A stretch of 64,000 nucleotides of DNA from Sinorhizobium garamanticum (GTDB taxonomy: Bacteria; Pseudomonadota; Alphaproteobacteria; Rhizobiales; Rhizobiaceae). Location of the stretch: positions 3,355,001 through 3,419,000 of the forward strand of contig NZ_CP120373.1 of assembly GCF_029892065.1 (NCBI RefSeq). The letters are read 5' to 3'. Under the pieces are notes generated by a model, which ran no database searches, was not told the DNA's origin, and saw only the letters and a program-made list of their open reading frames with translations. The position numbers and the translations under genes are program-made. This document shows, in pieces, positions 6,442-45,915 of this stretch; within the stretch, counting starts at the first letter, position 1; every line of letters starts with the position of its first letter.

Positions 6442-6708
6442 ATGAAACTGAAAGTGATCGACGGCGGTAAAGCCAATGAAGCCATGTCCGCCGACAGGCC
6501 GACCATCCGCGCCGAGGCGGAGCGACGCATAAAGGCGACCGGCTACGAGCAATGGCGGGTTCGCAGCCTCGCAACCGGCTCGCCGGTCCCGAAGTCCACC
6601 CAATATCTAAAGATGCAGATCGAATTCGTTGCCGAGAAACTCGAGCAGCTCAATCCCATCCCCGGTGATTTCACCGACGACAAGTACTGGCCAACTATCG
6701 GGGCGTGA
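6442..6708 (+). CDS. Conserved-looking hypothetical protein
   Basis: 88 residues from ATG 6442 (MKLKVIDGGKANEAMSADRP). The frame is also open from 6376, but that stretch overlaps a palindromic sequence (GCAATTCCGCACGGAATTGC). The middle, IRAEAERRIKATGYEQWRVRSLATGSPVPKS, and the end, QLNPIPGDFTDDKYWP, look like a compact soluble helical protein. No strong ribosome site is visible, which leaves the start open. Function unknown. It converges on the monooxygenase-like gene at 6735 with a 26-base gap. Confidence 0.6.
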   Translation: MKLKVIDGGKANEAMSADRPTIRAEAERRIKATGYEQWRVRSLATGSPVPKSTQYLKMQIEFVAEKLEQLNPIPGDFTDDKYWPTIGA

Positions 6709-6734
6709 TGACTGCGCCCGCGCAGCCAGTGGCG

Positions 6735-7040
6735 CTATTTGGTTGGCGCGCTCTCGTAGATCGCCTCACCGGAAACGGCATCCGTGACGTCTATGCTTTC
6801 CCCCTGCCCCTCGAGGGAGTGGCGGAACTTGTCGAGATTGCTGATCATTTTCGGCCGCGCTGCAACGATGTGATCGAAACTTTCCCACTCGCCGATCGAG
6901 CAATAGGACCGTTCGCCGGTCTTGATGAGCGCCATTTTCCGCAATCCTTCGAAATCGCGACGAAGTTGGCGGAACCAGGTCTCAAACTCGTCCTCCAGCC
7001 CCGGTTTCGTACGGAAGCGAACCACGTTGTATGCTGTCAT
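6735..7040 (-). CDS. ABM-fold (antibiotic biosynthesis monooxygenase-like) protein
   Basis: 101 residues from ATG 7040, with a GGGGGT stretch upstream as ribosome site. The chain MTAYNVVRFRTKPGLEDEFETWFRQL...GERSYCSIGEWESFDHIVAARPKM matches the dimeric alpha-beta barrel of ABM-domain proteins in length and order: beta-strand, long helix with F-x-x-W-F, then strand and GEWES. Members include heme-degrading and quinone monooxygenases and many unassigned enzymes. It is divergent from the gene at 7207, another small ferredoxin-like protein, and the two share a 166-base promoter region. Confidence 0.72.
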   Translation of the reverse strand: MTAYNVVRFRTKPGLEDEFETWFRQLRRDFEGLRKMALIKTGERSYCSIGEWESFDHIVAARPKMISNLDKFRHSLEGQGESIDVTDAVSGEAIYESAPTK

Positions 7041-7206
7041 GACGCTACCCCCATATCTTTCGGAGGCAAGAATACCATTAATGGTGGCGGTAGTTCCACC
7101 ACTCAATTTTGCCGAGATTGCCGGCCGAAATGTCACCGGTCGCAGCACTCTCACGCATGATCGCCCGCAAGAGCGGGCGGCTAACCAAATGAGGAGGATC
7201 GAAGCC

Positions 7207-7563
7207 ATGAAGAGATTTCTGGCCATTTACATAGGGACGGAAGCCGCGCTCGCGAGATCGCAGTGGAAGCAGATGGACGACGAAGAGCGCAAGGCGCGTG
7301 AGGTTGCGGGCGTCGAGGCGTGGATGGAATGGGGAAGGGCGAATGCGGCCTCCATCATCGACCAGGGAAGCCCTCTCGGGAAGACGAAGCGCGTGTCCCC
7401 GGAAGGGATTTCCGACATCAAGAACAGCATGACGGGGTATGTGGTCGTTCAGGCGGAATCGCACGAAGCTGCCGCAAGGCTGTTCGAGAAACATCCGCAT
7501 TTCACGATCTTCCCGGGCGACGCCGTGGAAATCATGGAATGTCTGCCGCTTCCTGGGCAGTAA
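7207..7563 (+). CDS. YciI-like small protein (dimeric alpha-beta barrel)
   Basis: 118 residues from ATG 7207, with GAGGAGG nine bases upstream. The order of elements (MKRFLAIYIG strand, helix with WKQMDDEERKAREVAGVEAWMEWG, strand GYVVVQAESHEAAARLFEKHP, then GDAVEIMECLP) fits YCII/DGPF-type proteins, which are often encoded near ECF sigma factors or regulators. The assignment is by pattern only. Reaction and substrate unknown. Confidence 0.7.
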   Translation: MKRFLAIYIGTEAALARSQWKQMDDEERKAREVAGVEAWMEWGRANAASIIDQGSPLGKTKRVSPEGISDIKNSMTGYVVVQAESHEAAARLFEKHPHFTIFPGDAVEIMECLPLPGQ

Positions 7564-7624
7564 GGCATCGCAACAATCGAACCCGAGGCAAACGGCGCAG
7601 AGGGGGGTCTGTCGGCCGTCTCAG

Positions 7625-8695
7625 CTACGCCTTTCGCGATATCGACATGGGCCGCTGGAATTCCGGCTGACTGAGGCTTTGCAGCGTTTCGGGTGGCTTG
7701 CCTTCGATTTGGCCGATCACAGCCTTGGCGAGCTCGCGACCGGCAAGCCGGATGTCCTCGTACATGGTCATGACTTCGGGGCGCAGCCAGCGTAGGAAGT
7801 CGCTCGGCACCTTGGAGACCATGTCGACATCGTCGCCGACCTTCTTGCTCGCAGATTCGATCCCTGCGATTAACGCAATCGCGCCAGAACCGCTGCCGGA
7901 AACGATGCCGTCCGGGGCGTCAACCGAGCGCATCAGTTGCTCGAAGGCGTCGCGGATGGCGACGAGGCTGTGGTCGATGTTGACATGGTGGAAGCTCACC
8001 GCTTCCGCACCGAAATCCTTAAGCCCACGCTCGAAGCCCGTGCGCATGTGGGAATGGAAGGTGAGGTTCGGCGGCGGCTCCAATAGCACCAGCCGGCGCC
8101 TGCCGCGCTCGGTGAGCCGGCGCACCGCCTCATAGGCGAAGCGTTCGTTGTCGAAGTCGTGGAAGGGATGGACGATCCCCATTTCCGTGCGGCCATGGGT
8201 GACAAAGGGCAAGTGGCGCTCGGTCATCAGCGTCACACGCGGGTCGTGTGGCTCCGTCCGCGAGATGATTACGCCGTCGGCGGCGCCCGTGTCGAGGATA
8301 TAGCGGATCGGCCCCAACGGATCCTTTGTGGAACTGTAAGGGGTAACCACCAGATGGTACTGGGTGCCAGCGAGGATTTCGGTGATGCCGACGACCATGG
8401 GGCTAGTGATGCCCATGATCTCTTCCTCCAGTGTCAGCACGAGGCTGATGACATTGGTCTTGCCGGTTCTGAGGCGCACGCCGGCACGGTTCGGCTGGTA
8501 GCCGATCTGCTTGGCGACGAGGCGCACCCTTTCCTTGGTTTCGGCGCCGATGTCGGGCGCATCCTTCAATGCTCGGGAAACCGTGGTGATCCCAAGACCG
8601 GTCATGAAGGCGATCGTTTTCAGCGTCGGCCTGGCGCCGTCCGGCGGCGGCACTGCCGCCGCCCTGTTTTTCGTCTTGCCGTCCATCCCCGTCAC
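7625..8695 (-). CDS. LacI family sugar-responsive repressor
   Basis: 356 residues from GTG 8695 (ATG 8686 is an alternative). Residues about 23-75 form the LacI helix-turn-helix and hinge: TLKTIAFMTGLGITTVSRALKDAPDIGAETKERV, then IGYQPNRAGVRLRTGKTN. The rest is a periplasmic-binding-protein-like effector domain with VISLVLTLEE, DGVIISRTEPHDPRV and the C-terminal PEFQRP. It is divergent from the sugar ABC operon starting at 9210, so it most likely represses that operon and releases when a pathway sugar binds. A CTGTAACGATACAG palindrome in the shared spacer is the candidate operator. Confidence 0.93.
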   Translation of the reverse strand: MTGMDGKTKNRAAAVPPPDGARPTLKTIAFMTGLGITTVSRALKDAPDIGAETKERVRLVAKQIGYQPNRAGVRLRTGKTNVISLVLTLEEEIMGITSPMVVGITEILAGTQYHLVVTPYSSTKDPLGPIRYILDTGAADGVIISRTEPHDPRVTLMTERHLPFVTHGRTEMGIVHPFHDFDNERFAYEAVRRLTERGRRRLVLLEPPPNLTFHSHMRTGFERGLKDFGAEAVSFHHVNIDHSLVAIRDAFEQLMRSVDAPDGIVSGSGSGAIALIAGIESASKKVGDDVDMVSKVPSDFLRWLRPEVMTMYEDIRLAGRELAKAVIGQIEGKPPETLQSLSQPEFQRPMSISRKA

Positions 8696-9209
8696 CAGCC
8701 CCGTCCCCTTTTGAGACCTTTGCGCAAACCGCCACGGTCAAGCGCCCGCTTTGACTCGCAGCTTCGATGCGAACACGCCCGATCCGTCTCGGTTCCCGGC
8801 TTATATACGAATTGTGACCGGTGACCAGATTTGTCGGAGCTGTGTCGCGGAACAAAATCTGTAACGATACAGTAGCGATGTCGAGCATTTTCGTTGCTGC
8901 ACTGCGAAGAACATAACCATCTGGTTGAATCCTGCAGTCGCGAAGCGAGATATTGCATTTGCGAAGTGCCGCCCAAGTGCTCCGCGATCTATTTCGGTTC
9001 AGAATCCCTTTGAATCAAAGCGTTATGGCCGAGAATTGGAGGCTCGCACGACTGAGCCGAGGATCGATGTTATCCTCTTTGAAGAGCTGTCAGACACACG
9101 TATTAGGCGAATTGAAAATAATATCTAGAATTATCCGTTGTGGGTGTTGCGTCGGAAAATCGTTTGAACTAAGTTTTTACGGCAACGTTACAGTGAGGGA
9201 GGAGAACTC
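8696..9209. other. Divergent promoter region of the LacI gene and the sugar operon
   Basis: 514 bases without a supported gene. It contains candidate LacI-type operator sequences at 8859-8872 and near 9181-9193. The rest is AT-richer than the coding neighbours, as expected for a promoter region. Confidence 0.6.
8859..8872. promoter_or_regulatory. Candidate LacI-family operator
   Basis: CTGTAACGATACAG is a near-perfect palindrome with the central CG typical of LacI-family operators. A related half-site, CGTTACAG, occurs at 9186-9193 just before the ribosome site of the binding-protein gene. Two sites about 320 bases apart could allow looping. Inference from palindrome and position only. Confidence 0.5.
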
Positions 9210-37806: not shown

Positions 37807-38337
37807 GGAAGAAGTCCTTTTCCTTCAGTCTGTCTTTTGCCGCAACCCAGTGCTTCAATAACACGCATCGGCTGCCGCAGGTAGTGTCCGCGCCCCCGGG
37901 GGGATGCGAACGGGTCGTCTTCAGCGCTATCGGCACTGAAAGGCGTCGAGTGGTCACGATATCGGGGAAAAGACGTCAACGATGCCGCTTGCGGCGGTCC
38001 CGGCGAATGGCCGGGCTCAAACGAAAGTCCAGTCTCCGGGATTGAAAACGCCCGAACAAAGATAGGAGTGGCAGCTTTCGCGAAAAAAGGCAAGCGGAGT
38101 TTCAGGATGCGGTGATCGCCAGCTGCAATGCCTTGCATGCAGCCTTTTGCGCCACTTCCTCGAACGCGCCTCGATCCGGAATTGTCGTGGATTGCCTCTT
38201 TCTGACCACATTTTCGTCCCGACGCTCGGCTGAGCGTGGCGATCACGGATCGACCGCCATGGGCTTGCTGCCGGCGCAGCGAACCGGTAGGTCTGAACCG
38301 AGAGGAATATTGCATTGATGAAGAACAGGTGCCCGGC
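37807..38337. other. Divergent leader/promoter region of cspA and the J-protein gene
   Basis: 531 bases without a supported gene. Near 37891-37902 there is a GCGCCCCCGGGGGG stretch that could fold in the cspA leader. No family A-E repeat was seen. Confidence 0.5.
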
Positions 38338-38925
38338 GTGATCGATCCCTATGTCCTCCTTGGAATTGAGCGCGACGCCGACGCGCGAGCGATCCGGACC
38401 GCCTATCGAAAGGCGGTCAAGACGGCGCATCCCGACCGCGGCGGCGATGCCGAACAGTTCGGCAAGCTGCAGGCGGCCTATGACCTGCTCAAGGATCCGG
38501 TGCGCCGCAAGGTCTATGACGACACCGGCTACGATCCGCAGCTCGCCGATCCGAAGGACCTCAAGGGCCTGATGATGCTCGAAGCGCTGGTCAACGATTT
38601 TATCCTCGACGAGCGTGAGCCCGGCAGCTTCGATCCGGTCGCCGCCATGCGCCGCAAACTCTCCGACGACATCGTCAAGAACCGCTTCCACATCCTCGAA
38701 CTCGAGCGCCACCGCTCCCGCGTCCGCAAACACCTCGACCGCCTCGGCCGCCGGCCGGAGACCGACGTGCTTGGCTCGATGCTCCGCGCCCGCAGCCAGT
38801 CGATCGCCGATGCAATCAAGAACGCCGAAGCGCAGATCGAGGCGATCGAGCAGGCATATACGATGCTGGAGGGGTATTCGTATGAGCTGGAGGCGTTGGA
38901 GGTGAAGGCGAGGGCGGCGGAGTAG
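38338..38925 (+). CDS. J-domain (DnaJ-like) protein
   Basis: 195 residues from GTG 38338 (GTG 38329 also possible; neither has a strong ribosome site). Residues 1-60 form a J domain (IDPYVLLGIERDADARAIRTAYRKAVKTAHPDRGGDAEQFGKLQAAYDLLKDP) with the HPD tripeptide that stimulates DnaK ATPase. The rest (LEALVNDFILDE ... ADAIKNAEAQIEAIEQAYTMLEGYSYELEALEV) is helical, probably coiled-coil, with no zinc-finger or client domain. It is a specialised co-chaperone of unknown client. A degenerate second copy of most of this gene lies at about 40285-40776. Confidence 0.85.
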   Translation: MIDPYVLLGIERDADARAIRTAYRKAVKTAHPDRGGDAEQFGKLQAAYDLLKDPVRRKVYDDTGYDPQLADPKDLKGLMMLEALVNDFILDEREPGSFDPVAAMRRKLSDDIVKNRFHILELERHRSRVRKHLDRLGRRPETDVLGSMLRARSQSIADAIKNAEAQIEAIEQAYTMLEGYSYELEALEVKARAAE

Positions 38926-38980
38926 GGGGCAGGATGTCGCTTTGATTTAGAAGCGATAAACTCGCTTGGGCTGCACGAGC

Positions 38981-39259
38981 ATGATTTCGACGGCCGTTCT
39001 GTCGTGCATCCTGCTTCGGGCGGTTGTTGCGCCGATCGCTATGGCCCAACCTGCTTCAAAGCGGCTTTCCTTTGGCGAAGTGCGATGCACGCCGGAGGGT
39101 GTGTTTCAAGACGGAGTGCAGTGTGGTTGCCTGGCCAAGCCCGGAACGGACCTGATCCGATCCACTGCATTCTTGGTGAGGGCGACGAGGAACTCGCGCC
39201 AGCCGCAAGGGGCCGGCGCGACTTGCTTGTTCATCTGGCGTGGCGGTTTGCTGGGTTGA
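38981..39259 (+). CDS. Possible small secreted protein
   Basis: 92 residues from ATG 38981. A signal-like start (MISTAVLSCILLRAVVAPIAMAQ, cleavage after AMA) is followed by VRCTPEGVFQDGVQCGCLAKPG with three cysteines. The second half is basic and less protein-like. No good ribosome site is seen, and it converges on the Gly-rich gene. It may be real or a decayed remnant. Confidence 0.4.
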   Translation: MISTAVLSCILLRAVVAPIAMAQPASKRLSFGEVRCTPEGVFQDGVQCGCLAKPGTDLIRSTAFLVRATRNSRQPQGAGATCLFIWRGGLLG

Positions 39260-39264
39260 TCTCC

Positions 39265-39972
39265 CTAATCCTGATTGCCTAGCTCGCTGGCATCACCACC
39301 GGGATCACCAGCGCCACCGCCGGGTTCAACGTCGCCGTTGCCTAGCTCGCTGGCATCACCACCGCCGGGATCACCGCCGCCGTTGCCGGGATCACCGCCG
39401 CCGTTGCCGGGATCACCGCCGCCGTTGCCGGGATCACCGCCGCCATTGCCGGGATCACCACCGCCGTTGCCGGGGTCACCGCCGCCATTGCCGGGGTCAC
39501 CGCCGCCATTGCCGGGGTCACCGCCACCGCCACCGGGATCACCGCCGCCGCCACCGGGGTCGCCACCGCCACCGCCGGGATCACCGCCGCCATTGCCGGG
39601 GTCATCGCCGCCGCCACCGGGACCACCGCCACCGGGACCACCGCCACCGGGACCGCCGCCACCGGGACCGCCACCGCCGGGACCGCCGCCGTTCTGGCCA
39701 TTGGTGCGGTCCGTGGACTGGCTGGCTGCACCCGTCAGGGCCGTGGACATCGGCGGACATTGCTCGATTTCCGTGGCTGTCAGGATTTCAGTCCTGTTGC
39801 GAGCAATGCAGCAGACCTGATAGTTCGCCTCGGTAAGGGGGCTACACTGCTCAGCGGTAAGTATGGGGCGCTCGACGTCTTGGCTCCACGCCGGGACTAC
39901 CGTCGATGCTAAAAACCCGGCCGACATCATAGCCAGGCCGGTGCTCGCGAAAAGTGAATTTAGGATTTTCAT
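39265..39972 (-). CDS. Secreted glycine-rich repeat protein
   Basis: 235 residues, with a near-perfect ribosome site (AGGGAGGTG) before the ATG. Signal peptide MKILNSLFASTGLAMMSAGFLASTVVPAWSQ, then a 60-residue folded segment with a few cysteines (AEQCSPLTEANYQVCCIARN and TEIEQCPPM). From residue 92 on it is low-complexity: five GGGGP units, then about ten GGGDPGN/GGGDPGG heptads (21-nt DNA unit), ending with two copies of GGDASELGN. The array resembles calcium-binding or extended surface linkers, but no known repeat family fits exactly. Function unknown; the repeat number is likely variable. Confidence 0.78.
   Translation of the reverse strand: MKILNSLFASTGLAMMSAGFLASTVVPAWSQDVERPILTAEQCSPLTEANYQVCCIARNRTEILTATEIEQCPPMSTALTGAASQSTDRTNGQNGGGPGGGGPGGGGPGGGGPGGGGPGGGGDDPGNGGGDPGGGGGDPGGGGGDPGGGGGDPGNGGGDPGNGGGDPGNGGGDPGNGGGDPGNGGGDPGNGGGDPGNGGGDPGGGDASELGNGDVEPGGGAGDPGGDASELGNQD
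39341..39680. repeat. Tandem repeat array coding Gly-Asp-Pro heptads
   Basis: Direct repeats of about 21 bases (CCGCCGCCGTTGCCGGGATC and variants) and 15-base GGGGP units, all in frame with the secreted protein. Not a CRISPR array: units are contiguous with no spacers. Confidence 0.85.
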
Positions 39973-40284
39973 TTTACACCTCCCTAAATTAGTAGAGGCT
40001 GAACTGCGTATCGGCGGGAATGTTCCTTAAAAAATTAGGGGTTTTATGGTGGAAGCTACTACGAGGAATGCCGGAGATTTTCAGATGATAGGTGGAAGAT
40101 CGCGCAGTCCGCTATAACCCGGTTCACACTCGTTGCCGCTACTGCATGATTCCTTAAATCGGAATCGATTTAAGGGCAAAATCATGCAGCAATTTCAAAG
40201 TGTTGCGCGCCCGATTGGACGCGCGGCGCTGCAGGTGCTCGGATATCTGCGTGTGGCCTTGTGAATTCGCCGTCGTCGTTGTTG
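39973..40284. other. Spacer upstream of the Gly-rich protein gene
   Basis: 312 bases. AT-rich promoter-like sequence near 39975-40075, then a family A repeat at 40141-40234. No gene. Confidence 0.55.
40141..40234 (+). repeat. Bipartite palindromic repeat, family A, copy 6
   Basis: TGCATGATTCCTTAAATCGG ... CAAAATCATGCAGCAATTTC, then GCGCGCCCGATTGGACGCGC ending GCGCTGCAG. It lies immediately before the decayed J-protein copy. Confidence 0.8.
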
Positions 40285-40776
40285 ACGCATAGCACGGAAG
40301 TCTGGGCGTTGATGCCGAGCAGTTCGGCAAGCTGCAGACGGCCTACGACCTGCACAAGGACTCGCTGCGCCGCAAGGTCTATGACGACACCGGCTACGAT
40401 CCGCAGCCCGCCGATCCTAGAATTTTTAGGGGGTCGATGATGCTGGAGACACTGATTAACGAGTTCGTGCCTCGATAGCACGAGCGCCGCAACTTCGATC
40501 CGGTCGCCGCCATGCGCCGCAACTCTCCGCGACATCGTCAAGAACCGCTTCCACATCCTCGAACTCGAGCGCCACCGCTCCCGTGTCCGCAAGCACCGCG
40601 ATCCCCTTGGCCGCGGGCCGGAGACCGACGTGCTCGGCTCAATGCTGCGCGCACGCAGCCAGTCGATCGCCGAGGCGCAGATCGAAGCCATCGAGCAGGC
40701 GTATTTGATGCTGGAAGGGTATTCTTATGAACTGGAGGCGATAGAGATGATGGCGCGCGGCGGATTAGCGGTATAG
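40285..40776 (+). pseudogene. Degenerate second copy of the J-protein gene
   Basis: From GATGCCGAGCAGTTCGGCAA to TAG at 40776 the DNA aligns with 38445-38925 over nearly its full length. It encodes recognisable pieces such as KVYDDTGYDPQ, FDPVAAMRR, HILELERHRSRVRKH and EAIEQAYLMLEGYSYELEAIE. The HPD-containing first half of the J domain is lost. There is an in-frame stop where the intact gene has DEREPGS (CGATAG at about 40475), and a frameshift in the segment matching RRKLSDDI. There is no start. It cannot make the protein. Confidence 0.82.
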
Positions 40777-40849
40777 TAGCTCGTCGCCACTTATCCATCA
40801 CCTACGAATGTACGCCGTATTTGGCGCGTTCGCAGCGGTATCCGCCCGA

Positions 40850-41032
40850 TTATTTGCTCTTTTGGGAATCCTGGCGAAGTTGGTTGGATCGCTCGGCTTC
40901 TCGCGATGAAGAGCCTTCGTCGAACTTATGTGAGCGCCAATCCGAGAAGTAAATCCTGTGCGAGGCGATCACTTTTTCTAAGCGCCGAGCTGCCGCTTGA
41001 GTTGCATTAGCTTTGTTTGATTTTGCAACCAT
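40850..41032 (-). CDS. Small basic protein divergent from the antiphage deaminase gene
   Basis: 60 residues with a perfect AAGGAGG ribosome site seven bases before the ATG. The sequence (MVAKSNKANATQAAARRLEK ... RSHKFDEGSSSREAERSNQL) is rich in Lys, Arg, Ser and Gln, soluble, with no known motif. It is the only gene divergent from the deaminase; the two starts are only 55 bases apart, so both promoters overlap. It could be a regulator, an inhibitor or an unrelated passenger. In known AvcD systems the partner is a small RNA, not a protein. Confidence 0.55.
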   Translation of the reverse strand: MVAKSNKANATQAAARRLEKVIASHRIYFSDWRSHKFDEGSSSREAERSNQLRQDSQKSK

Positions 41033-41086
41033 TTTGTGCCCTCCTTGCGATCAAATGTCAGCTTACACGATTCGAGACTTCAATCC

Positions 41087-42604
41087 ATGACGCAGTTGAT
41101 ACCTCGCCTGGAATTTCCGGAAATTGTGATTGGCCTCGTTGCGCCAATAGGGACTTCGCTTAATGATACAATTGCCGAAATTCGGAAGTTTTTCTTATCC
41201 GTCGACTACCAAGTGCACGAACTTCGCGTCACGGACGTTTTCAAGCAGATGGCGAAAATAATTAAGCCAGATGATCGGCTCATCGAAAAGCCTCTGTTTA
41301 AGCGATACGAGAGCCATATTTCCTACGGTAACCAACTCAGGCGATTTTCTAGCGATCCATCCGTCTTGGCGGCTTTAACAATACAGACGATTGTCGAAAC
41401 GAGAATTAAGCAGAGCTCTCCAAACAATGAGAAATTTACGAAAAACGTATATATACTTCATCAGTTTAAGAGACCTGAGGAGATAGAACTACTTAGGTCT
41501 GTCTATGGAAAGATTTTCTTTCAAATATCTGTCTATTCAATGAGATCTTCTAGAGTGGATTATCTCGCGCGAAAATTTGCGGAAGACGCAGCGGAGGCGA
41601 GTCACACTTCATTTCGTTCTAGTGCCGAGCAGTTGGTTGATATTGATGAAAACCAAGTTAAAGAGAAGTTTGGGCAACGGGTAGCCAAAATCTTTCATGA
41701 CGCGGATTTAATTTTGAACAGAGACGTGCGGGAACCTTCTTTAACTGATCAGTTAAACCGTTTCCTTGAACTGCTTTTCTCTTCGAACGTTATAACGCCT
41801 ACAAAACTCGAGTATGGCATGTTTGCGGCGAAGTCGGCCGCGTTGCGAACCTCAGATCTTTCACGGCAAGTTGGAGCAGCGATTTTCAGTCGAAAAGGTG
41901 AAGTTATTGCTATGGGCTCCAATGAGGTGCCAAAGGCTGGGGGCGGAACATATTGGCCTGATGATGAGTTCGATGACAGGGAGTTCAGGAGAAAGGTCGA
42001 CTCTAACGACAAAAGAAAACAAGAGATACTTGAGGAAATAGTCAAAAAAGTTGGGATTTCATGGGACCAATTAAGTGAAGAGCAGGTCAACAGTCTGCAT
42101 GACTCAAGTTTGATGGATGCTCTTGAGTATGGACGCATTGTGCATGCAGAGATGTCAGCTATATCAGATGCTGCGCGACTTCGCGGCGCGTTGCAAGATT
42201 CTATACTCTATACAACAACCTTCCCTTGTCACATGTGTGCAAAGCACATCGTTTCGAGTGGCATAAAGAGGGTTGTATATCTAGAGCCGTATCCCAAAAG
42301 CTTGGCTTCGCGGCTTCATGCAGACTCTATTGATATAGATAGCCAAGAGCGTGGCGAGTACAAAAGCTATCCTGCCGTCGAGTTTACCCACTTTTACGGG
42401 ATAACCCCTAGGCGTTATCGCGAATTCTTTCAGAGAAGCAAACGAAAGGATGGAGATGGCCGGCTTCAGGATTACATAGATAACAAAAAAATACCGTTTG
42501 TTGATCTGAAATCTCCCTTCTATGCACAACTTGAAGACACAGTTTTAGAAAGCCTCAAAGCGGCTCTACATAAGATGGAGCGAAGTGGCTCTTTAACCGA
42601 CTAG
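41087..42604 (+). CDS. Antiphage dCTP deaminase (AvcD-like)
   Basis: 505 residues from ATG 41087 (41036 is an alternative but overlaps the divergent gene's ribosome site). Two-domain layout: an N-terminal P-loop kinase-like domain starting FPEIVIGLVAPIGTSLNDTI (modified P-loop at residues 16-23), and a C-terminal zinc deaminase domain with HAE at 353-355 and PCHMC with Cys381 and Cys384. This is the architecture of the AvcD/antiphage dCTP deaminases, which deaminate dCTP (and dCMP) during phage infection, collapsing the dC pool. DNA is visibly AT-richer (about 40-45% GC by eye) than its neighbours and codon use differs, so it is probably acquired. It sits between a gene-duplication scar and uvrB. 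Confidence 0.85.
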   Translation: MTQLIPRLEFPEIVIGLVAPIGTSLNDTIAEIRKFFLSVDYQVHELRVTDVFKQMAKIIKPDDRLIEKPLFKRYESHISYGNQLRRFSSDPSVLAALTIQTIVETRIKQSSPNNEKFTKNVYILHQFKRPEEIELLRSVYGKIFFQISVYSMRSSRVDYLARKFAEDAAEASHTSFRSSAEQLVDIDENQVKEKFGQRVAKIFHDADLILNRDVREPSLTDQLNRFLELLFSSNVITPTKLEYGMFAAKSAALRTSDLSRQVGAAIFSRKGEVIAMGSNEVPKAGGGTYWPDDEFDDREFRRKVDSNDKRKQEILEEIVKKVGISWDQLSEEQVNSLHDSSLMDALEYGRIVHAEMSAISDAARLRGALQDSILYTTTFPCHMCAKHIVSSGIKRVVYLEPYPKSLASRLHADSIDIDSQERGEYKSYPAVEFTHFYGITPRRYREFFQRSKRKDGDGRLQDYIDNKKIPFVDLKSPFYAQLEDTVLESLKAALHKMERSGSLTD

Positions 42605-42610
42605 CTTGGA

Positions 42611-45559
42611 TTACCGCCCGGGCCGTCCCGTTTTCCCCTTCGTGCGCCCCTTGGACCCCACACCCGGATTCGCCCGGATTAACGGCTTCTCCGGTACTTT
42701 GCCCGTCACCGGCTTTTCCGTCCGGCCGACGGTCATTTCGTCGAGCGTGTTCTTGCGGAACAGCGATTGCTCTTTGCCGGCAGGGACCGCCACGTCGCGG
42801 CCCATTTCGTCGAGGTCGGGTTTGCGGAAGAGGGGGCGTTCGGTGTCGGTGCCAGGGCCCATGTCGTCGATCGAAGGCTTGGTGAAATAGCTCCCGGAAG
42901 CACCCCCCTCTGTCCTGCCGGACATCTCCCCCACAGGGGGGGAGATTGGCCCGGGCGCGCCCTTGCTGCCCCGCTTGCCGCTTTCCTGCGACCGCGCCTC
43001 TTCCCGTGCCAACGGATCATCCAGCGCGGCGAGTTCGGCGGCCTTGAGGCGCTTGATCTCGTCGCGGAGCCGGGCGGCGGTTTCGAAGTCGAGGTCGGCG
43101 GCGGCGTCGCGCATCTGTTTTTCGAGTGCGTTGAGATGCGCCTGGAGATTGTTGCCGACGAGGTGTCCGCCTTCGGCGAAGCCCTTGCCGGAGATGCCGG
43201 AAATGTCGGCGCGGACGTGGTCGCGCTCGTATACCGAATCGAGGATGTCGGAGATCTTCGCCTTCACCGATTCCGGCGTGATGCCGTGTTCGAGGTTGTA
43301 GGCCATCTGCTTCTCGCGGCGGCGGGCGGTTTCCTCCATCGCGCGCTGCATGGAGCCGGTGATCGTGTCTGCATAGAGGATGACCTTGCCGTCGACATTG
43401 CGGGCGGCGCGGCCGATCGTCTGGATCAGCGAGGTTTCCGAACGCAGAAAACCTTCCTTGTCGGCGTCGAGGATGGCGACGAAGCCGCATTCGGGAATGT
43501 CGAGGCCCTCGCGCAACAGGTTGATGCCGACCAGCACATCGAAGGCGCCGAGGCGGAGGTCGCGGATGATCTCAATACGCTCCAGCGTGTCGATGTCGGA
43601 GTGCATGTAGCGCACCCGCACACCCTGCTCGTGCAGGTACTCGGTGAGGTCCTCGGCCATGCGCTTGGTGAGCACGGTAACGAGTGTGCGGTAGCCGGCG
43701 GCGGCCGTCTCGCGGATTTCGCCGAGGACGTCGTCGACCTGCGTCTTGGCCGAGCGCACTTCGACCGGTGGGTCGATAAGGCCGGTCGGGCGGATCACCT
43801 GTTCTGCGAAGACGCCGCCGGACTGTTCCATCTCCCAGCCGCCCGGCGTCGCCGAGACGGCGATCGTGTCCGGACGCATCGCGTCCCATTCCTCGAACCG
43901 CAGCGGCCGGTTGTCCATGCAGGAGGGCAGGCGGAAGCCATATTCGGCCAGCGTCGCCTTGCGGCGGAAGTCGCCGCGATACATGCCGCCGATCTGCGGA
44001 ATGGTGACGTGGCTCTCGTCGATGAAGATCAGCGCGTTGTCGGGAATATATTCGAACAGCGTCGGTGGCGGCTCGCCCGGCTTGCGGCCGGTCAGGTAGC
44101 GCGAATAGTTCTCGATGCCCTGGCAGGAGCCGGTGGCCTCCAGCATCTCAAGGTCGTAGCGAGTCCGTTGCTCTAGCCGCTGCGCTTCGAGCAGGCGGCC
44201 CGCCTTTTCCAGTTCTTCGAGCCGAAAGACCAGTTCGTCCTTGATCGCCTTGATGGCGGCGTTCAGCGTCGGGCGCGGCGTCACATAGTGCGAGTTGGCG
44301 TAGATCTTCACCGATTTCAGGTCGCCGGTCTTCTGGCCGGTCAGCGGATCGAACTCGGTGATCGCGTCGATCTCGTCACCGAACATGGAGATCCGCCAGG
44401 CGGCATCCTCCAGGTGGGCGGGGAAGATCTCGATGGTGTCGCCGCGCACGCGGAACGAGCCGCGCTGGAAATCCATGTCGCGGCGCTTGTATTGCTGCGC
44501 CACCAGGTCGGCGAGCAATTGCCGCTGGTCGAGCCGGTCGCCGACACTCATCTGGAAGGTCATCGCCGTATAGGTCTCGACCGAACCGATACCGTAGATG
44601 CAGGAGACCGAGGCGACAATGATGACGTCGTCGCGTTCGAGCAGCGAGCGCGTCGCCGAGTGGCGCATGCGATCGATCTGCTCGTTGATCGAGGATTCCT
44701 TCTCGATATAGGTGTCCGAGCGCGGTACGTAAGCTTCCGGCTGGTAGTAGTCGTAGTAGGAGACGAAATACTCGACGGCGTTTTCCGGGAAGAAGTTCTT
44801 GAATTCGGAATAGAGCTGGGCGGCGAGGGTCTTGTTCGGCGCCAGGATGACTGCCGGGCGCTGCGTTGCCTCGATCACCTTGGCCATGGTGAAGGTCTTG
44901 CCGGAGCCGGTGACGCCGAGCAGCACCTGGTTCCGCTCGCCGGAGGAGAGGCCGTCGACGAGGTCGGCGATCGCGGTCGGCTGGTCGCCCGCAGGCTCGT
45001 AGTCCGATTGCATGCGGATGGCGATGCCGCCTTCGGACTTTTCCGGCCGGGACGGGCGGTGCGGCGTCCAGAGTTTGCCGTCCTTGAACAGCGGATTGCC
45101 GCTCTCGATCAGCTTGGAGAGCGCCTCGACGGTGGCGGTTACGCCGGAACCGGCCGTCAGCTTGTCGGCATCCTCCAGCGCGACATCGAGGCCCGCGACT
45201 GGATTGAGACCCGCGGCGGCGCGTGTCTTCGGATCGGTCGAGCCACCCATGGAAGTGCCGCGTGCCGTTTTTCCGCTGACGGTCTCGGCCTTGCCCTTGC
45301 CGCTGCGCGGGCTGTCCGCCTTGCCCGTGGCTGTCTTCTTCGAAGCAGCAAACTCCACCTTCTTGCGATGCTTGCCCGCCTTGGAGGCGAGCTGGCGCTG
45401 GCTTTCGAAGGTGCTTGCCTCCGCCTCCGCCTCGAGTTGCTTCACCCAGTCGGAGACATTGCCGGACAGCGGCGTGCCGGAAAGCGGCGCCTGCGGGGCT
45501 TCCTCGAAACCGCTGGGTGCTGACGATTTCTTCGAGGAGTTCTTCGGATTTTGGGCCAT
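42611..45559 (-). CDS. uvrB: Excinuclease ABC subunit B
   Basis: 982 residues from ATG 45559, far longer than the usual 670-700. The core is intact: [21 protein letters not shown] (motif I), [20 protein letters not shown] (beta-hairpin for damage probing), [61 protein letters not shown] and the UVR motif [27 protein letters not shown]. An N-terminal extension of about 170 charged residues precedes the core. A tail of about 130 follows the UVR motif, part of it coded by an inserted palindromic repeat. It loads onto damage with UvrA and positions UvrC in nucleotide excision repair. Confidence 0.97.
42901..42950. repeat. Palindromic repeat inside uvrB (in frame)
   Basis: CCCCCTCTGTCCTGCCGGAC followed by ATCTCCCCC-ACAG-GGGGGGAGAT is the standard rhizobial intergenic module, here in the coding sequence. 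Read as protein it gives [15 protein letters not shown] in the UvrB tail, without disturbing the frame. Confidence 0.75.
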
Positions 45560-45735
45560 GGCCGGAATATGGACAGAGTCAGGTCGAATGTGAAGGGGGA
45601 ATGAGTACAAACGGGAAACGAAACGGGTGTTTTTCCGACGGAACGACCGGCTTTGTTTACCGGCGCATGCACGCGGCGATTGCGCCGCCACATCGGCTGT
45701 GCAAGATCGCTCGGGATCGGATTCCGGAGGCAAGG

Positions 45736-45915
45736 GTGGAAGCAACGCAGCAAGACACTGCCAGAACAGCTTTCGACGAAATCGCCCTGGCGCCGAGCGG
45801 CGAAGCTCTGGCGAATGTCCGCGAACTTCTCGTATTGCTCGCGACTGCGAAACTCGCAGGCCAGATTGGTTGGGAAGGGCTTTTATCCGGGGAGACCCTA
45901 GAAAGCGCGGTTTGA
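45736..45915 (+). CDS. Small hypothetical protein
   Basis: 59 residues from GTG 45736 with GGAGG five bases upstream. The end of the chain ([46 protein letters not shown]) is a plausible soluble helical protein. The frame is open further upstream without a supported start. No family recognised. Lies between divergent uvrB and the DUF486 gene. Confidence 0.45.

Follow-up and report, generated by a model that had tools for sequence, protein, structure and literature searches.

The window analysed here, a 64-kb stretch within the 4.2-Mb contig of the Sinorhizobium garamanticum genome (6.83 Mb, 3 contigs), carries an AT-rich cassette inserted next to uvrB, in which a gene for a predicted anti-phage dCTP deaminase and a small gene on the opposite strand diverge from a shared promoter region. 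The features are listed below in window coordinates.

40305..40774, + strand: degraded second copy of a DnaJ-domain gene at the left edge of the cassette, aligned to intact dnaJ-like genes of relatives
40765..42607: inserted cassette of ~1.84 kb, holding the small gene and the deaminase gene and nothing else, delimited by flank alignment against genome G010 (locus L127)
40850..41032, − strand: divergent small gene, 60 aa, family A (a predicted helix with a conserved Trp), supported by same-place homologs, HMM and synonymous excess
41033..41086: shared divergent promoter region, 54 bases between both start codons
41040..41046, − strand: strong Shine-Dalgarno sequence AAGGAGG of the small gene, from sequence and duplex energy
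41068..41074, + strand: CGATTCG, a CcrM site GATTC (41069–41073) within a match to the extended GcrA-type motif YGAKTCK
41087..42604, + strand: putative anti-phage dCTP deaminase, 505 aa (P0001), from NF041025 and PADLOC dCTPase scores and a structure model
41120..41779, + strand: adenylate-kinase-like N-terminal domain, residues 12–231, without the Walker A lysine
41795..42421, + strand: zinc dCMP/dCTP deaminase C-terminal domain, residues 237–445
42143–42151, + strand: HAE motif, residues 353–355, a zinc/catalytic motif
42224–42238, + strand: PCHMC motif (PCxxC), residues 380–384, a zinc/catalytic motif
42611..45745, − strand: uvrB, the right neighbour, from Pfam UvrB domains

Against the NCBIfam equivalog NF041025 ('anti-phage dCTP deaminase') the enzyme scored 446.1 bits (cut-off 400), with residues 12–453 aligned to profile positions 1–435 of 437, and the PADLOC dCTPase model gave 549 bits. 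In the predicted structure (pLDDT 90.7), the kinase-like N-terminal and the zinc deaminase C-terminal domain are joined in one chain, and the HAE and PCxxC residues were invariant across 49 aligned rows. Profile score and predicted fold place the enzyme in the anti-phage dCTP deaminase family, with deaminase and defence activity predicted from that family. The first-pass annotation, made from the letters alone, had already read this two-part architecture from the single chain, and both the fold and the family search that it proposed agree with it. Its label 'AvcD-type' holds for the enzyme, which belongs to the deaminase family of AvcD (to which we take NF041025 to be linked), and fails for the AvcID system as a whole: identity to the listed enterobacterial, Vibrio and Photobacterium plasmid homologs was just 32–36%, and no sign of an AvcI-type RNA was seen. 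Taken alone, the enzyme would count as a new member of an already known family.

Insertion site and distribution

The flanks of the cassette match the G010 locus up to 40764 and then again from 42608. Among 33 genomes of the genus, a full-length deaminase was found in four (the window's own genome, G005, G020 and G021), with an 81-residue remnant in G012. The interval between the dnaJ-like gene and uvrB was extracted from 30 of the 32 other genomes in the set, where the two genes lie ~0.15–3.7 kb apart, and in none of these 30 did it contain the deaminase. This absence, together with the sparse occurrence in the genus and the AT-rich composition, fits the earlier suggestion that the DNA was acquired. 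The annotation had also named two outcomes that would speak against its reading, a housekeeping placement with synteny conserved across the genus and a missing kinase-like N-terminal domain; no such placement was found, and the domain is present.

Other genomes carry other genes in the same interval. In G010 it is occupied by a different pair, one a RES-domain protein and the other a DnaB_C protein with Xre/ParS antitoxin domains at its end, and in G012 (L144) by a PARIS-like AriA/AriB pair (oriented coordinates 6584–8724). The G010 pair (oriented coordinates 6756–8671 of L127) is an unusual toxin-antitoxin architecture, in whose 456-residue protein a DnaB_C helicase domain is joined to antitoxin domains of the Xre/MbcA/ParS type.

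The deaminase tree comprised 69 rows, after eight of 77 deaminases were omitted as short or broken. It contained clade I (29 rows including the window; support 100/98), clade II (19 rows; support 100/99) and a third group of 12 rows, which includes the E. coli and Pantoea plasmid homologs and stands apart from clades I and II. When genera are compared, at least 14 loci spanning these three tree groups have uvrB no more than ~2 kb from the deaminase, among them L001, L012 (a 76-residue piece at a contig end), L013, L014, L015 and L061 in clade I, L041, L046, L051 and L054 in clade II, and L006 in the third group; a dnaJ-like gene is found on the opposite side too in six (L001, L013, L015, L041, L046 and L054), both counts being lower bounds as several loci have short flanks. 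The dnaJ–uvrB interval looks like a defence hotspot rather than the conserved synteny of one gene.

Of 419 matching annotated phage records, two cover at least 80% of the enzyme, the remaining listed matches being to the deaminase domain. Because many relatives of the deaminase sit in IMG/VR contigs, carriage of deaminase loci by prophages is likely; the cassette of the window itself contained no phage gene.

Several further features were recorded around the insertion site. Second DnaJ-gene copies or pieces are also present in L127, L128, L129 and L141, there without a deaminase. A glycine-rich low-complexity protein with a signal-like start, as judged by eye, is encoded at 39265–39972 (− strand); it had no Pfam match and has a counterpart in the same interval of 26 of the 30 other genomes. 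At 40132–40265 lies a palindromic dispersed repeat that recurs in several loci of the genus; a permissive scan of 38000–42700 placed BASRCI27 (Brucella sRNA CI27) there at 29.1 bits, below its gathering score of 59.8, and this candidate was rejected as overlapping the repeat and lying outside the cassette. Within uvrB (42890–42966, − strand), an element of 45–75 bases in the 3' coding region, read in frame as UvrB, matches dozens of places across the genomes of the genus at ~83–98% identity and is likewise a dispersed repeat.

The divergent small gene and its pairing with the deaminase

In most related alphaproteobacterial loci, the upstream ORF listing revealed a divergent ORF of ~55–75 residues upstream of the deaminase. 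Same-place homologs of the 60-aa ORF of the window occur in its five closest full-length relatives (L012–L016), with 48–59% identity over the aligned part. Six seeds were hand-picked from this listing for each of two small families, A and B. The divergent small ORF was classed as family A in 25 of the 29 clade I rows, the exceptions being L022, L034 and L035, which have no partner, and L065, which has only an unlike ORF; these 25 rows and three loci with an interrupted deaminase frame make up the family A set of 28 small ORFs. Family B occupies the divergent position in all 19 clade II rows and in the fragment locus L072, and its 20 members (the six seeds, plus 14 that an HMM picked out of all six-frame ORFs) are all divergent and on the opposite strand. 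No homology between the two families was detectable (hhalign probability 0.2%). Searches of 14 homologs outside clades I and II, of which three are enterobacterial, gave no family A or B match better than E 0.19 and none that was convincing at the divergent place.

Scanning 397 genomes of the order with the family B model gave six hits, of which five adjoin a deaminase and belong to the training loci or copy one of them; the sixth is new and lies in G244, at a contig end with deaminase pieces next to it. The four hits of the family A model likewise adjoin a deaminase and are without exception training loci or copies of these, a scan that shows absence elsewhere rather than new members and that misses diverged copies such as the one in G331. 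In viral-contig loci collected later (L177–L188), a divergent ORF of 57–74 residues accompanied a clade I-like deaminase (47–56% identical) in 12 of 12 cases, some of these loci being near-identical to one another. At the divergent place, the frozen family A model matched three loci, L177, L178 and L179, at E 7e-7 to 6e-4, with a weaker match in L185 (0.017); the family B model matched L190.

The family A ORFs had been chosen on the divergent strand beforehand. In a jackknife ranking that covered both strands, the model for each locus was built from the other loci minus any relatives of ≥60%, and the ORF was ranked against all six-frame ORFs of its locus. The divergent ORF came first in 21 of 28 loci, with 0.17 expected by chance, and was first of 82 ORFs in the window; the remaining ranks were 5th (L026 and L032), 6th (L019), 7th (L055), 9th (L028), 14th (L021) and 72nd (L049). 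Across the six closest loci, 120 of 169 single-base codon differences were synonymous in the true frame, where the blind expectation is a fraction of 0.24, and the other five frames gave 41/186, 23/202, 23/169, 88/202 and 21/186, the 88 belonging to the frame with the same wobble position. The clade II small ORFs gave 1764 synonymous differences out of 3083 (blind 0.24). Identity at codon positions 1, 2 and 3 was 0.53, 0.60 and 0.36 in the six closest loci and 0.46, 0.52 and 0.29 in family B. By these comparative measures the small ORF is under protein-coding constraint, and the protein it encodes diverges faster than the enzyme in 15 of 15 pairs of the six closest loci (e.g., 53% vs 80% identity).

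The small gene also has the stronger ribosome site. Duplex energies in the window are −11.4 kcal/mol for the small gene and −3.0 kcal/mol for the deaminase; the same order holds in 25 of 27 clade I loci (medians −9.5 vs −3.0 kcal/mol) and in 13 of 20 clade II loci (medians −9.8 vs −6.5 kcal/mol). Modelled alone, the small protein forms one helix, best over residues 11–30 (pTM 0.45), a prediction that neither supports nor excludes binding to the enzyme. No credible Pfam match was obtained for the companion protein: T6SS_Tle1-like_C (one of 23 family A members, E 7e-4) and PhaP_Bmeg (one member, 0.006) were taken as chance, and its database relatives are called 'hypothetical' or 'uncharacterized' where named. 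Family A was aligned as 23 of its 28 ORFs (L021, L032, L049, L055 and L056 being omitted as too diverged) and, in a wider alignment, as 22 loci with 13 of 19 database proteins. The Trp is invariant in the aligned rows and missing from L032 alone among all 28 ORFs; by eye, a Trp-less version also occurs in the viral-contig loci L180–L184 and L186–L188, relatives of L032.

The deaminase and the small gene almost certainly constitute a two-gene module. On comparative grounds, constant co-occurrence and selection at the protein level establish the 60-residue protein as a dedicated partner of the enzyme.

Other upstream ORFs were noted in passing. Those divergent to the deaminase in L048, L053, L067, L071 and L195 show, by eye, a WL...L..A pattern like that of the N-terminal half of family B, and could enlarge the partner family. 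In two E. coli plasmid copies, an ORF of 60–61 residues is annotated on the same strand just upstream of the deaminase (L088 2209–2394 and L089 705–887, both + strand), with a similar Lys/Arg-rich C-terminal stretch closed by SK...W; this ORF could be either a third partner protein or part of the AvcI region.

A CcrM site in the shared promoter

The spacing between the two starts, 54 bases in the window, is ~100 in many clade II loci. Start codons, set by hand for family A and by rule for family B, were fixed before the GANTC search, in which each counted region was at least 30 bases (lengthening that of L056) and the deaminase start of L055 was estimated. The GATTCG columns are identical across the six closest loci, and GANTC is the commonest of the 16 xyNy'x' palindromes in the promoter regions (20/28 in clade I, 18/20 in clade II). 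It was present in 38 of 48 promoters and absent from 10, with 10.6 expected from GC-matched windows of the same loci and a mean of 15.5 (maximum 25) in 300 dinucleotide shuffles; the extended motif YGAKTCK was present in 31 of 48 (2.3 expected from GC-matched windows). Since the 48 loci are related, they were thinned to one locus per 65%-identity group, leaving 28, of which 20 had GANTC (5.5 expected) and 16 YGAKTCK (1.35 expected). Among 68 loci that were fetched after the motif had been noticed and are not identical to earlier ones, 13 have a family A- or B-type ORF; GANTC was found in all 13 (2.4 expected) and YGAKTCK in nine (0.46 expected), where near-copies (L178/L179, L180–L182 and L187/L188) reduce the 13 to about 9 distinct loci.

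As a control, ordinary upstream stretches of a rhizobial plasmid contained GANTC in 3 of 57 cases, and its divergent intergenic regions (66–870 bases) in 2 of 10. In alphaproteobacterial homologs outside clades I and II, the site was found within 120 upstream bases in 4 of 9. No uniform orientation of the extended motif toward one gene was found. The middle base of GANTC varies and the position of the site shifts between loci, from which we argue for selection on GANTC itself. Taken together, these comparisons establish a conserved predicted CcrM site between both starts. Inverted repeats (GCGAT...ATCGC and TTAAG...CTTAA) were also seen by eye in aligned clade II promoters (L038, L042, L043 and others).

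The window genome encodes GcrA (PF07750, 220 bits, in a search whose control also rings in Caulobacter and, oddly, in Sulfolobus). A RAMA domain, which we take to be a marker of CcrM, was found in a 417-codon frame (PF18755, 67 bits; here the control rings in Caulobacter only). As far as the available extracts of the published work go, GANTC is the CcrM site, methylated in 4 of 4 Ensifer strains tested (PMC8725594), and in Caulobacter GcrA is recruited by methylated GANTC, changes to the site lowering activity by 60–80% in four tested promoters and leaving a fifth unaffected (PMC3667746). GcrA activation has been linked to TGATTCG/YGAKTCK, and the same extract reports no preference for the extended motif among the GcrA targets of B. 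subvibrioides (PMC7987155). For E. meliloti, the consulted part of one study gives GANTC within 125 bp for 111 of 462 cell-cycle genes, with no enrichment, and describes promoter GANTC alone as no predictor of cell-cycle regulation in Ensifer (PMC8725594).

The promoter site of the module probably functions in CcrM/GcrA control. It resembles the GcrA/CcrM-dependent Caulobacter promoters mipZ, podJ, flaY, pleC and ctrA P1, which, in the extracts cited, have a promoter GANTC, often in YGAKTCK (PMC3667746, PMC7987155). Unlike those examples, which belong to cell-cycle, polarity and flagellar genes, it stands in a mobile defence module, where GcrA/CcrM control is what we infer. The first-pass annotation had guessed from the divergent gene upstream that this enzyme may be controlled differently from AvcD; the gene proved to be a conserved companion, with a conserved CcrM site in the promoter, and the guess is upheld.

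Proposed control of the deaminase by a protein partner

In Vibrio, a small RNA, AvcI, lies upstream of avcD (PMC9455884, PMC10511110). In the extracts available, AvcD deaminates dCTP and dCMP and is inhibited by AvcI, which is lost when phage shuts off transcription, freeing AvcD (PMC10511110); over-production of AvcD without AvcI leads to filamentation (PMC9455884). The present module is like AvcID of Vibrio cholerae in the kind of enzyme, its patchy distribution and a small regulatory element directly upstream, and unlike it in that this element is a divergent protein gene (of two families), that the promoter has a CcrM site, and that no AvcI-like RNA was found. By score the enzyme belongs to PADLOC dCTPase/NF041025; the matching models describe the enzyme, and the companion lies outside them. 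Among the literature matches listed (titles and abstract starts, from a set with few subscription papers and without the 2022 discovery papers), none described control of an anti-phage dCTP deaminase by GcrA/CcrM, or a partner protein for such an enzyme. The novelty lies in the partner protein and the methylation-site promoter, beyond the known enzyme family.

We propose that the deaminase would act as the effector, converting dCTP/dCMP to dUTP/dUMP on infection and thereby starving phage DNA synthesis, as expected from its family. The small protein, made in excess via its strong ribosome site, would hold the enzyme off in healthy cells, a labile brake in place of the Vibrio RNA AvcI; when phage shuts off host transcription it would disappear, and the enzyme would be freed. 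CcrM would methylate the promoter GANTC and GcrA would probably read the methylated site, so that expression of one or both genes could be tied to the cell cycle and replication. More speculatively, the promoter could respond to infection, because a GcrA homolog is encoded by five of six phiCbK-like Caulobacter phages, according to the extract consulted (PMC3556154). By analogy with antitoxins, the small protein may well be an inhibitor of the deaminase, a point on which our confidence is evenly divided. The fast divergence and the two unrelated families in the same slot are as with antitoxins, and, as in type II toxin-antitoxin systems, a small, exchangeable gene for a dedicated protein, with a strong ribosome site, adjoins the effector. 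Unlike in those systems, the companion has no recognised DNA-binding domain, its inhibition of the enzyme is putative, and it is not in one operon with the effector; classical protein antitoxins share the toxin's operon, and the divergent position of the small gene on the opposite strand counts against an inhibitor. The reading as a whole, a defence module of a deaminase and a labile inhibitor protein whose expression is tied to CcrM/GcrA methylation, appears to us about as credible as not.

The pairing can be read in other ways. The small protein might be a transcriptional autoregulator of the divergent promoter that does not touch the enzyme, an arrangement to which the 54-base or ~100-base shared promoter, typical of regulator–target pairs, and the recurring inverted repeats seen by eye in clade II would lend themselves. 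We consider it unlikely: the protein is predicted as a single helix, with neither a helix-turn-helix nor a credible Pfam match, and the two unrelated families in one slot would both need to be repressors. Somewhat less likely again is that the deaminase depends on the small protein for defence, as its activator or as a sensor of infection. Constant pairing and fast divergence would also suit a sensor caught in an arms race, whereas the 14 homologs outside clades I and II lack a convincing family A or B member, and the enzyme core would thus not need one; this argument is weakened by the two E. coli plasmid copies, which have their own same-strand upstream ORF.

An AvcI-like RNA on the + strand, running across the small gene and controlling the deaminase with the small ORF as a secondary feature, has the Vibrio precedent in its favour and is nonetheless improbable, given that the opposite strand of the 183 bases upstream is constrained as protein-coding sequence, that no Rfam match reached its gathering score in the 64-kb window, that the + strand fold of 40846–41089 is ordinary (z = 0.11), and that 40780–41200 contained no terminator-like site. 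A scan for E. coli-type hexamer promoters, from which rhizobial promoters may differ, gave one site, on the − strand at 40849–40877, inside the end of the small gene. Hardly credible is an ordinary housekeeping dCMP deaminase with incidental neighbours: the C-terminal fold is indeed that of dCMP deaminases, yet the protein passed the two-domain anti-phage model, is full length in few genomes of the genus, is encoded in an AT-rich insert at a variable site, and does not show universal presence in the genus with conserved synteny.

The preferred reading, with the small protein as a labile inhibitor, can be extended to a broader proposal that we hold tentatively and with rather more doubt than belief: that Alphaproteobacteria may have replaced the RNA antitoxin by protein inhibitors more than once and placed the pair under a CcrM/GcrA-read promoter, making it an epigenetically gated defence that would sense disturbance of both host transcription and replication-linked methylation, as might happen when an infecting phage supplies a GcrA homolog of its own. 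In the literature examined, the sole described control of an anti-phage dCTP deaminase is RNA. Conserved partner proteins of two unrelated kinds would account for how many alphaproteobacteria keep the enzyme safe, and make two small proteins candidates at once. With a conserved CcrM site in its promoter, a mobile defence module would link phage defence to the alphaproteobacterial cell cycle.
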